From: Burkholderiaceae bacterium
Lineage (GTDB): Bacteria; Pseudomonadota; Gammaproteobacteria; Burkholderiales; Burkholderiaceae_C
Direction of reading: 5' to 3'
NCBI GenBank assembly: GCA_004299095.1
Contig: SCQQ01000017.1
Location: 1 to 42,662 of the forward strand
Length of the DNA stretch: 42,662 nucleotides
A program made the position numbers and the translations under genes. Numbering within the stretch: position 1 is the first letter of the stretch; every line of letters starts with the position of its first letter. Below the pieces are notes generated by a model, which saw only the letters and a program-made list of their open reading frames with translations, ran no database searches and was not told where the DNA came from. Below are positions 32,454 to 35,084 of the stretch, piece after piece.

Positions 32454-33902
32454 ATGAGCACGCCGGCCCTGATCCAGGGCTACGAAGTCGTGATCGGCTT
32501 CGAGGCCCACATCCACCTGCGCACCGAGAGCAAGATTTTCAGCCGCGCGCCCACGCGTTTTGGCGCCGAGCCGAACACGCAGGCGTGTGCCGTCGACCTG
32601 GCGCTGCCCGGCACGCTGCCGGTGATGAACCGCGAAGCGGTGCATTGCGCCATCAAGCTGGGCCTGGCACTCGGCTCGAAGATCGCGCCGCGCAGCGTGT
32701 TCGCGCGCAAGAACTACTTCTACCCCGACCTGCCCAAGGGCTACCAGATCAGCCAGTTCGAAATCCCGGTGGTGCAAGGCGGCACGGTGTCGTTCTTGCT
32801 GGATGGCGAAAAGCGCGCCGTGCGCCTGGTGCGCGCGCACCTGGAGGAAGATGCGGGCAAATCCATTCACGACGCATTCCCCGGCCATACAGCGCTCGAT
32901 CTGAACCGCGCCGGCACACCGCTCTTGGAAATCGTGACCGAACCGGACATGCGCTCGTCGGCCGAAGCCGTGGCGTATGCGAAAGAGCTGCACAAGCTCG
33001 TCACTTGGATCGATATTTGCGACGGCAACATGCAGGAAGGGTCGTTCCGCTGCGACGCCAACGTGTCGGTGAGGAAGCCCGGCGCTGAGCTCGGCACGCG
33101 GCGCGAAATCAAGAACCTGAACAGCTTCCGCTTCATGCAGGACGCGATCGACTACGAAATCCGCTGGCAGATCGAGCAACTGGAAGACGGCCACGCCATC
33201 CAGCAGGCCACGGCGCTGTTCAACCCGGCCACGGGCGAAACGCGCGCCATGCGCACCAAGGAAGATTCGGCCGATTACCGCTATTTCCCCGATCCGGATT
33301 TGCCGCCGCTGGTGGTGTCGGAAGAATGGATCGAGCAGACGCGCGCCGAAATGCCCGAACTGCCGCACAAGATGGTCGAGCGTTTCGTGCACGACTACGG
33401 ACTGCCCGAATACGACGCGATCACGCTCACGCAGTCGCCCGCGATGGCGGCTTATTTCGAGGCCGTGGCCCAACAGAGCAGCGAGCCCAAGCTGGCAAGC
33501 AACTGGATCATGGGCGACGTGTCGCGCCGGCTGAACGAGACGCAAGCCGGCATCGAAGCATCCAAGGCTTCGGCTGCGCAACTGGCTGCGCTGATCCGCC
33601 GCATCGCGGACGGCACCGTGAGCAACGCCGCGGCACGCAAGGTGTTCGACGCGCTTTGGGATGAAGGCGGCGAGGTCGACGCGATCATCGCGGCCAAGGG
33701 CCTGAAGCAGATGAACGACACCGGCGCGCTCGAGACGATCGTGGACGAGGTGATCGCCGCCAACGCGCACAACGTGGCGCAATACCAGGCCGGCAAGGAC
33801 AAGGCCTTCAACGCGCTCGTGGGCCAGGTGATGAAAGCCACGCGCGGCAAGGCGAATCCGGCGCAGGTCAACGCGCTGCTGCATCAGCGGCTGGACGGTT
33901 GA
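32454..33902 (+). CDS. gatB: Aspartyl/glutamyl-tRNA amidotransferase subunit B
   Basis: The kinase and tRNA-binding subunit of GatCAB. It phosphorylates the misacylated Glu or Asp and amidates it. There are 482 residues: cradle domain with [59 protein letters not shown] and RVHLEED-type ([15 protein letters not shown]), then a helical domain and the C-terminal YqeY-like tail ([20 protein letters not shown]). The ATG at 32454 has GGAGGG upstream, inside the end of gatA. Typical and complete. A weak terminator-like hairpin follows. Confidence 0.98.
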
Positions 33903-33918
33903 GCAGAGGATTGCGGTT

Positions 33919-33939
33919 GCCGCTCAGGCAAGCGGCTTT
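33919..33939 (+). terminator. Weak terminator-like hairpin after gatB
   Basis: GCCGCT (33919-33924) pairs with AGCGGC (33931-33936) around CAGGCA, followed by TTTG. The stem is GC-rich but the T-run is short, so termination may be partial. It lies 17 bases after the gatB stop. Confidence 0.4.
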
Positions 33940-34020
33940 GATGGGTGTCCCCCGTTGAAATCGATACCTGACACTGTCGGATCACGAGTCCCGACTGAGC
34001 TTGATCGAGGGTCCGCACGC

Positions 34021-34125
34021 GAGCACAGCCTTGGGGCGCCCTGTCCCGTTCATGTCCTCCGACTTGGGCCTGCGCCCAAGTCTCCCCCTTGACTTCACTC
34101 CACACGGCGCCCCAAGACTGCACTC
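34021..34125 (-). repeat. Structured element, copy A (conserved boxes in a long paired stem)
   Basis: Read on the minus strand, the outer arms (34106-34125 and 34021-34040) form a 20-bp stem. It includes 11 perfect pairs (CTTGGGGCGCC / GGCGCCCCAAG) and nine more, three of them G-T wobbles. Inside come box 1 AGTGAAGTCAAG (34088-34099), a perfect 9-bp hairpin GACTTGGGC-gcag-GCCCAAGTC (34061-34082) and box 2 GACATGAACGG (34046-34056). Wobble pairs favour function as RNA. GGAG stands just before the ATG of box 2, opening a 23-codon frame. Function unknown. Confidence 0.65.
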
Positions 34126-34178
34126 CATCCGACCGCCGTGGTTCGCAGGCGGAAAGAATGCGGACGCGACGTCGGTTA

Positions 34179-34287
34179 CGGTCGGGAACGCCGGGCGACC
34201 GGCGCAGTGAAGTCAAGAAGGAGGCGCCGGCCCTCAGGCCGACGACGGGTGACATGAACGGAGCCGGTCGCACGGTGTTCCCGGCCG
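34179..34287 (+). repeat. Structured element, copy B (same boxes, different but paired stem)
   Basis: On the plus strand, 34179-34203 pairs with 34263-34287: 24 of 25 positions, two being G-T wobbles and one a G-A mismatch. Inside are box 1 AGTGAAGTCAAG (34206-34217), a hairpin CGGCC-CTCA-GGCCG (34228-34241) and box 2 GACATGAACGG (34251-34261). Both boxes are identical to copy A, while stem and hairpin sequences differ yet still pair. That is covariation within one locus. The copies face away from each other with 53 bp between their 5' ends. Confidence 0.65.
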
Positions 34288-34361
34288 GCGCGCTGCTGTC
34301 CCAATCTGTCTCATCTTCAATCCAACGCGCCAGGCCACTCCAGCCGCGCAGACGTCGGGCG

Positions 34362-35084
34362 TCAGTGCCCCGCGCTCGATCCCGCTTGCGCGCCGCCCCG
34401 TACGCCATAGCGCGCACGGTATGTCAACACCGCCTGGCAATGCATTGCAGCCTCAGGGCCAGTTTGCGCTTGCAAATGCGCCAGCAAGTCGTCAAGGCTC
34501 GCAACGTGGCACACCTGCAGGCCCAGCGTCTCGCGCACGTACTGCACTGCGCTCCAAGCGACGTCCTGGCCGTTCTCCTTGGCCACTTCCTGCCGGTCCA
34601 GCGCAATGGCCACGGCGTGCGGCGTGGCCCCCGCCGCGCGGATGAGCGCAATCGATTCGCGCACCGCGGTCCCGGCCGAAATCACATCGTCGACGATCAG
34701 CACGCGCCCCACGAGCGGCGCGCCCACGAGCGAACCGCCTTCGCCATGGTCCTTGGCTTCCTTGCGGTTGTAGGCGTAGGGCTTGTTCACGCCCAGGCGC
34801 GCCAGTTCGACCGCCAACACCGCGGCCAGCGGTATGCCCTTGTAGGCCGGGCCGAAAATCACATCGAATTCGATCTTCGAGGCGAGCAGCGCGCGTGCAT
34901 AGAATTGGGCGAGGCGGCCCAGTTTGGCGCCATCGTCGAACAGCCCGGCGTTGAAGAAGTACGGCGACAAGCGGCCCGCCTTGGTCTTGAATTCGCCAAA
35001 GCACAGCACGCCGCTGTCGATGGCGAATTGCACGAAGGCTTGGGCCAGTTGATCTTTTTCGGACGCCTTCACGAGAAAGCCCAT
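34362..35084 (-). CDS. pyrE: Orotate phosphoribosyltransferase
   Basis: Pyrimidine synthesis: transfers ribose-5-phosphate from PRPP to orotate to give OMP. There are 240 residues with [56 protein letters not shown] (catalytic flexible loop with the family Lys residues) and the PRPP-binding [20 protein letters not shown]-terminal extension of about 15 Gly/Ala/Ser residues looks non-conserved. The ATG at 35084 stands two bases from the start codon of the divergent exonuclease gene, so its promoter must lie inside that gene. Confidence 0.97.

Follow-up and report, generated by a model that had tools for sequence, protein, structure and literature searches.

Paired structured arms between gatB and pyrE represent a family of small, probably mobile repeats

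The bacterial MITEs, such as ERIC, RUP and others, are small, non-autonomous elements that lie between genes and have partly inverted ends, while the insertion sequences of the IS200/IS605 group insert 3' of a short target. A further group comprises the REP, BIME and REPIN sequences with their TnpAREP (RAYT) transposases: a size of 21–65 nt is given for REPs in PMC6006769, and PMC8266576 describes TnpAREP as cleaving at CT. The TIRtrons with their TIRYT repeats (GGGGWSAS) are presented in PMC3733652 as moderate-copy, often dimeric repeats found mostly in species without REPs.

Here we describe a two-armed repeat from a 42,662-nucleotide stretch of a Burkholderiaceae bacterium (contig SCQQ01000017.1 of assembly GCA_004299095.1), henceforth the window, and its relatives in other genomes. 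As far as the cited sources describe those systems, the repeat shares with REP, BIME and REPIN sequences the dispersed intergenic hairpins in inverted pairs, the single-strand fold and the CT at most of the presumed cut points, and with the TIRYT repeats the moderate copy number and the often dimeric form. It resembles the IS200/IS605 ends, in a comparison that partly draws on PMC8266576, in its insertion 3' of a short target repeated at the right end, the lack of a clear longer duplication and the presence of hairpins; unlike them, the units examined have no internal transposase gene and their arms are inverted, and no known member with this core was found. Like the MITEs, it is small, non-autonomous and intergenic, with partly inverted ends, but its core is structured, conserved and covarying. 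The element behaves like REP/BIME, yet it fails three REP features, namely the GT[AG]G foot, the size and the associated Y1 transposase.

The unit between gatB and pyrE

The window unit consists of two arms placed head-to-head, with their 5' ends facing each other, between two genes that converge on it:

32454–33902, plus strand: gatB (TIGR00133), left neighbor, converging on the element
34021–34125, minus strand: arm A, left half of the head-to-head unit, with an outer stem (34021–34044 paired with 34102–34125), conserved core and inner hairpin; from the inverted repeat, the fold and a covariance model match at 34018–34128
34046–34056, minus strand: arm A box 2, GACATGAACGG, by sequence match
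34061–34082, minus strand: arm A inner hairpin with loop GCAG, by sequence and fold
34088–34099, minus strand: arm A box 1, AGTGAAGTCAAG, by sequence match
34126–34178, no strand: center separating arms A and B, by sequence and model match ends
34179–34287, plus strand: arm B, right half of the unit, with outer stem, conserved core and inner hairpin; from the fold and a covariance model match at 34177–34289
34206–34217, plus strand: arm B box 1, AGTGAAGTCAAG, by sequence match
34223–34246, plus strand: arm B inner hairpin with loop CTCA, by sequence and fold
34251–34261, plus strand: arm B box 2, GACATGAACGG, by sequence match
34362–35084, minus strand: pyrE (TIGR00336), right neighbor, converging on the element

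The initial annotation, made from the letters of the window alone, had described two boxes occurring once per strand orientation, with inner hairpins and long enclosing stems (20 bp in arm A, 24 of 25 in arm B); the boxes are present in both arms, and both arms fold as described. On the box strand, none of 200 shuffles folded as well as either arm, with RNA parameters (z = −8.5 for A and −4.3 for B) or with DNA parameters (z = −5.4 for A and −4.0 for B), and for both arms the opposite strand folds less well with the two parameter sets alike. A role as an intrinsic terminator was rejected: by eye, no T tract comes after the outer stem, and the scan gave a single terminator-like site, located on the minus strand within the arm B inner hairpin, with 0.4 expected in shuffles. 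The window genome yielded only these two arms at E ≤ 0.1 (150 of 2715 first-look candidates scored), and a near-match to box 1 elsewhere in it (L003) proved not to be an arm. The window copy is probably a single, old insertion between gatB and pyrE.

Copies, carriers and the conserved fold

The genome collection contained 26 matches to the exact two-box pattern; three of these loci (Nitrospirales, Kiritimatiellae and Lachnospiraceae) were judged to be chance matches, with no flanking outer stem by eye. Going by record titles, the 23 loci that were kept include Comamonadaceae bacterium 2FH, Limnohabitans, Roseateles, Paucibacter, Rhizobacter, Hydrogenophaga and Burkholderiales PBB2. Because further copies exist, a chance origin of the two window arms is excluded. 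Within the window's family, the pattern was found in 4 of 150 genomes, with the window genome among the matches listed. We then built a first covariance model from 24 copies found by the exact boxes, and a second one from 138 copies; the search of related genomes, which the annotation had proposed as a check, recovered further copies. With the first model, there were no arms in the two same-genus relatives of the window genome, and 15, 10 and 10 in three other relatives. Arms were detected in at least 13 of 300 genomes of the order and, with the second model, in at least 5 of 321 genomes of the class, the window genome being included in both tallies, which are lower bounds owing to stricter filters and the few candidates scored per genome. 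Among the five class carriers, G532 is weak (E 2.7e-4), and G453 and G713 come from a family outside the order. Closer scoring gave 17 carriers with 1 to 113 arms each, including genome G392 with 27 and genome G333 with 113. Two element patterns had no match in viral contigs, nor did the element L035 in plasmids or the element L134 in phages. The full-text literature matches listed contained only the 11–12-base boxes, not longer strings, under titles that look unrelated, and a search of titles and abstract starts yielded no description of the arm family. The two-arm repeats make up a family of small, probably mobile elements, and we found no name for it.

The architecture of the window unit is the prevalent one. 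Of the aligned arms, 138 in all, 116 are paired. They make up 58 units, of which 53 are head-to-head, 4 tail-to-tail and 1 direct. The other 22 arms are unpaired, for some of which the locus ends there or the partner falls below the threshold. The center, delimited by model match ends, measures 23–152, mostly 36–52. Within a unit, the two arms show 42% identity in the stems and 88% in the core, and by a crude split of stem types 43 of the 58 units join two types while 15 do not. The tail-to-tail set is made up of all four paired units of genome G149 (L047, L066, L070 and L075), the arrangement expected if the usual unit were circularly permuted. The genes neighboring 48 places, single arms included, are convergent at 17, tandem at 26 and divergent at 5; these calls come from a simple caller based on G+C by codon position, some of them being wrong by eye, and two of the places, L033 and L038, apparently hold one and the same insertion, shared by two Limnohabitans. 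At 4 of the 48, the unit is overlapped by a predicted frame, and at 4 more its edge is overlapped by the frame of a neighbor. Genomes thus hold repeated units, most of them in intergenic positions at the 3' ends of genes.

Individual loci display further variation. By eye, four loci of the genus g153 (L093, L094, L109 and L116) seem to have portions of the outer stem in tandem repeats beside the unit, and L107 has a half arm alone next to its intact arm, which suggests slippage or partial events. Separately, a similar double hairpin of about 75 bases is inserted in the arm core of L140 and L144 (both G392), L151 and L208 (G333), by eye at about the same point in these four copies from two genomes, after GGGGG and before CATG; it is possibly a second repeat that targets the arm element.

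The covariance model comprises 112 positions with 39 pairs. In the 24 copies, whose fixed core is a product of their selection by exact boxes, 95.0% of the cells are paired as against 71.1% when shuffled, both sides change in 31 of the 39 pairs, and sliding the partners by 1–3 columns reduces pairing to 34–40%. In the 138 copies from the window's order, which are model matches at E ≤ 1e-9 in 79 sources, standard pairs fill 94.2% of the paired cells as against 67.3% when shuffled, and 36 of the 39 pairs covary, in an alignment that was fitted to the model and hence leans toward structure. In this set, G-T cells outnumber A-C cells by 233 to 28 in the outer stem and by 46 to 6 in the inner stem, a ratio of about 8:1, and in the 53 head-to-head units the excess is present in both left (96:11) and right (89:8) arms. 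This excess of G-T over A-C indicates that the box strand itself folds. Thus, the box-strand fold of each arm is kept by compensatory change, which bears out the annotation's reading of the two differing yet paired stems as the mark of selection on single-strand structure. Its proposal that paired GTC and GAC in the boxes extend the fold held in part, the pairs in question, three in number, being formed in 131, 138 and 53 of the 138 copies, respectively.

The core itself also varies in step: GTGAA occurs with TGAAC, GCGAA with TGAGC, GCGAG with CGAGC and, in G020 and G114, GCGAA with TTCGC. These stepwise variants indicate that a helix is kept, with either a tandem G-A step or Watson–Crick pairs in its place (pairing by eye). 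Two further pairs of columns are coupled outside standard pairing, 44:107 (GG in 121 and AT in 15 of 138 copies) and 45:106 (AG in 108, GA in 14, AA in 10 and CG in 3 of 138). Each of the four positions of the GGAG that precedes the inner hairpin is kept in 136–137 of the 138 copies. C(GNA)G triloops, which are unusually stable in DNA, close the inner hairpin in 59 of the 138 copies and in 15 of 28 genomes or loci, GNRA tetraloops in 18 of the 138; the window arms A and B have neither kind. We dropped a classical kink-turn as a model for the core: such a motif requires a G-A pair adjoining a three-base bulge, and here that pair is absent, 44:107 being GG in most copies.

A fold of this kind might also serve in RNA. 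The arms would then be structured non-coding RNAs, or 3'-UTR modules that bind a protein through the core for mRNA protection, processing or attenuation, and that were spread by a mobile carrier. The internal loops with their non-standard coupling and the tandem G-A step, replaced by Watson–Crick pairs in some genomes, are RNA-like, and the neighbor orientations at the 48 places (17 convergent, 26 tandem and 5 divergent) can be counted on the same side. However, the two arms of a unit point to opposite strands, and at loci taken as tandem the antisense arm keeps G-T over A-C (12:3 in 8 arms) just as the sense arm does (18:6 in 10 arms), in small counts that include, among 10 loci, one (L148) called convergent by the gene caller. 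Further, no sigma-70-like promoter was found within 33880–34420 of the window, and the four tail-to-tail units of G149 rule out outward transcription from the center there. Rfam 15 gave no match in the window, in line with the annotation's view of the boxes as parts of an unrecognised element, and all of its 11 matches in four element loci lie below the gathering scores. We regard an RNA role as unlikely but as the main rival to a mobile DNA element. The annotation's alternative guess of a small RNA family is likewise a lesser possibility, as no promoter-like site was found in the window unit and its arms face opposite strands.

Ends and insertion sites in genome G333

The ends of the element were studied in the 113-copy genome G333, in which 27 units align with sharp ends. 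The element is about 353 bp long (median of 11 elements with both ends measured, 12 given), as measured by a script that required CT and is therefore silent on CT frequency. In G333 the units sit at operon junctions, and at two of these the filled site can be set against empty sites in relatives of the same genus (slashes mark the limits of the element):

ftr junction, filled in G333: GGCCT/GAAATGAAAC...GGAGCACT/GAGATGGACGG, between an FTR1-family permease (PF03239) and a following 4Fe-4S protein (PF12801)
ftr junction, empty in same-genus relatives, read in G763 and G760: G763 GGCCTGAGATGGACGG; G760 GTGACATGGACG
fliG junction (TIGR00207), filled in G333: GATCT/AGGATGAAA...GGAGCCACT/GACATG
fliG junction, empty in relatives, read in G760, G761 and G762, with no element in the bases shown: G761 GATCTGACATG; G762 GTCTGACATG; G760 GATCTAGCGACATG

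We infer that the empty junctions reflect gain in G333 and not loss in its relatives. Together with the multi-copy families, these two empty sites support the annotation's guess of a mobile structured repeat. The element appears to enter after the CT of a stop codon and to bring a GA or AG that rebuilds TGA or TAG, and it appears to finish in CT ahead of a host GANATG (CT/GANATG). With anchors that leave out the junction itself, 25 left ends and 19 right ends were located among the 27 units; in a count of rows by eye, 21 of the left and 14 of the right ones have CT where it is expected. Among the exceptions are the right ends of L180 and L181, which have CA and CC before GACATG. Both the empty sites and the CT ends pertain to one genus. 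The CT at the ends is compatible alike with a two-base duplication and with a single cut 3' of CT, between which it does not discriminate.

A right-end pattern was found at 30 G333 loci, of which 26 are the arm element by eye (4 dropped). N-ATG follows the right end in 25 of these 26, the pattern itself demanding CTGA and not ATG; this ATG starts a gene at ftr and fliG, and seemingly does not at L260. Of the 30 loci, 15 were scanned for arms: 9 are clear, L261 is weak, L256 has none and 4 are not the element. This right-end search in G333 yielded no parent insertion sequence. L256 (contig C16 of G333, near 107789) is an armless derivative in which the left and right ends are joined while both arms and the center are missing, and which still sits between a stop codon and N-ATG. 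We also considered whether box 2 guides target choice, as GACATG occurs both in the core and in the target of G333 and G392; this was rejected, since 2FH and PBB2 have the same core with other ends by eye.

The search for a mobilizing enzyme

Y1 transposases (PF01797) were found in 11 of 14 element-bearing genomes, with no match in the window genome, G020 and G333, and no arms were found around 15 Y1 loci. A profile of one Y1 clade matched 47 of 52 genomes, among them every one of the 44 others tested from the window's family; it matched both same-genus relatives of the window genome, in which no arms were found, and had no match in the window genome itself, in G333 or in G760, G761 and G762. 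The distribution of this Y1 clade accordingly does not track that of the element. A Y1 transposase as the mobilizer is accordingly unsupported by the PF01797 search, by arm proximity and by the clade profile. In G020, however, the clade profile detected a Y1 that had escaped the PF01797 search, so that a missed or different enzyme in G333 is possible.

These results bear on the reading of the arms as a REP/BIME or TIR repeat of a known Y1 (RAYT or TIRYT) transposase. Inverted hairpin pairs between genes, the CT at most of the presumed cut points, as PMC8266576 reports for TnpAREP, and the Y1 genes in most carriers would all accord with it. Yet the arms lack the GT[AG]G tetranucleotide (GTAG or GTGG) 5' of the hairpin foot and have GGAG before the inner hairpin instead; built of a long outer stem and an internal-loop core that is conserved, they measure about 110 nt and exceed the REP size range given in PMC6006769; and their units usually join unlike stems. 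With no arm beside the 15 Y1 genes and no Y1 match in the highest-copy genome either, we consider this origin very improbable. The Y1 gene of G392 (L124:1123–1935; PF01797, below the NF047646 cut-off) is TIRYT-like in being flanked by a 26-base inverted repeat, TAAATGGGGACAG.., which differs from the present arms.

The one candidate for an autonomous copy with a gene between the arms was also rejected. At L208:660–2370, a Fic-family gene (PF02661) lies with its flanks between two direct copies of one arm type. A further arm copy, the third, sits near the first one (model match 651–834) and accounts for this arrangement; the gene is probably outside the element.

That the unit is an ordinary MITE of a DDE transposon, with terminal inverted repeats just outside the arms as its real ends and the arms as passengers, is the least plausible reading: inverted-repeat-like ends do lie outside the arms in some genomes by eye (CTSATACSG.. 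in 2FH, TCGGCAC.. in PBB2), but these ends vary in sequence from genome to genome, unlike the conserved arm core, most units of G333 are by eye not bordered by the same target bases left and right, and no larger element emerged from the right-end search in that genome (15 of the 30 loci scanned for arms).

On balance, we favor the explanation that the window unit is a copy of a non-autonomous, dispersed mobile element with arms that are recognized as single-stranded DNA by a putative enzyme. The presumed CT cut points, the one-strand hairpins, the right end that repeats the target and the lack of a clear longer duplication are traces of the kind left by TnpAREP and IS200/IS605 enzymes (in part after PMC8266576), and they point to the arms as single-stranded DNA folds for an enzyme acting in trans. 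Such an enzyme would bind the arm core while the DNA is single-stranded, for example during replication, cut at CT and join the element again on the 3' side of a different CT, much as HUH single-strand transposases do. Copies that land at stop codons might survive because the stop is rebuilt and a ribosome-binding-like GGAG is brought in. More tentatively, the family could represent a new class of structured mobile element, in which paired arms with a non-canonical core are recognized by a putative HUH-like or RNA-guided enzyme, and insertion 3' of CT at operon stop–start junctions rebuilds the stop and supplies a ribosome-binding site so that the operon survives.

As a covarying family without an Rfam match and untraced in the literature searched, these repeats offer a test object for how hairpin repeats spread without a recognized transposase. 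Precise use of stop–start junctions would clearly exemplify how a selfish element can be shaped so that operons keep working.
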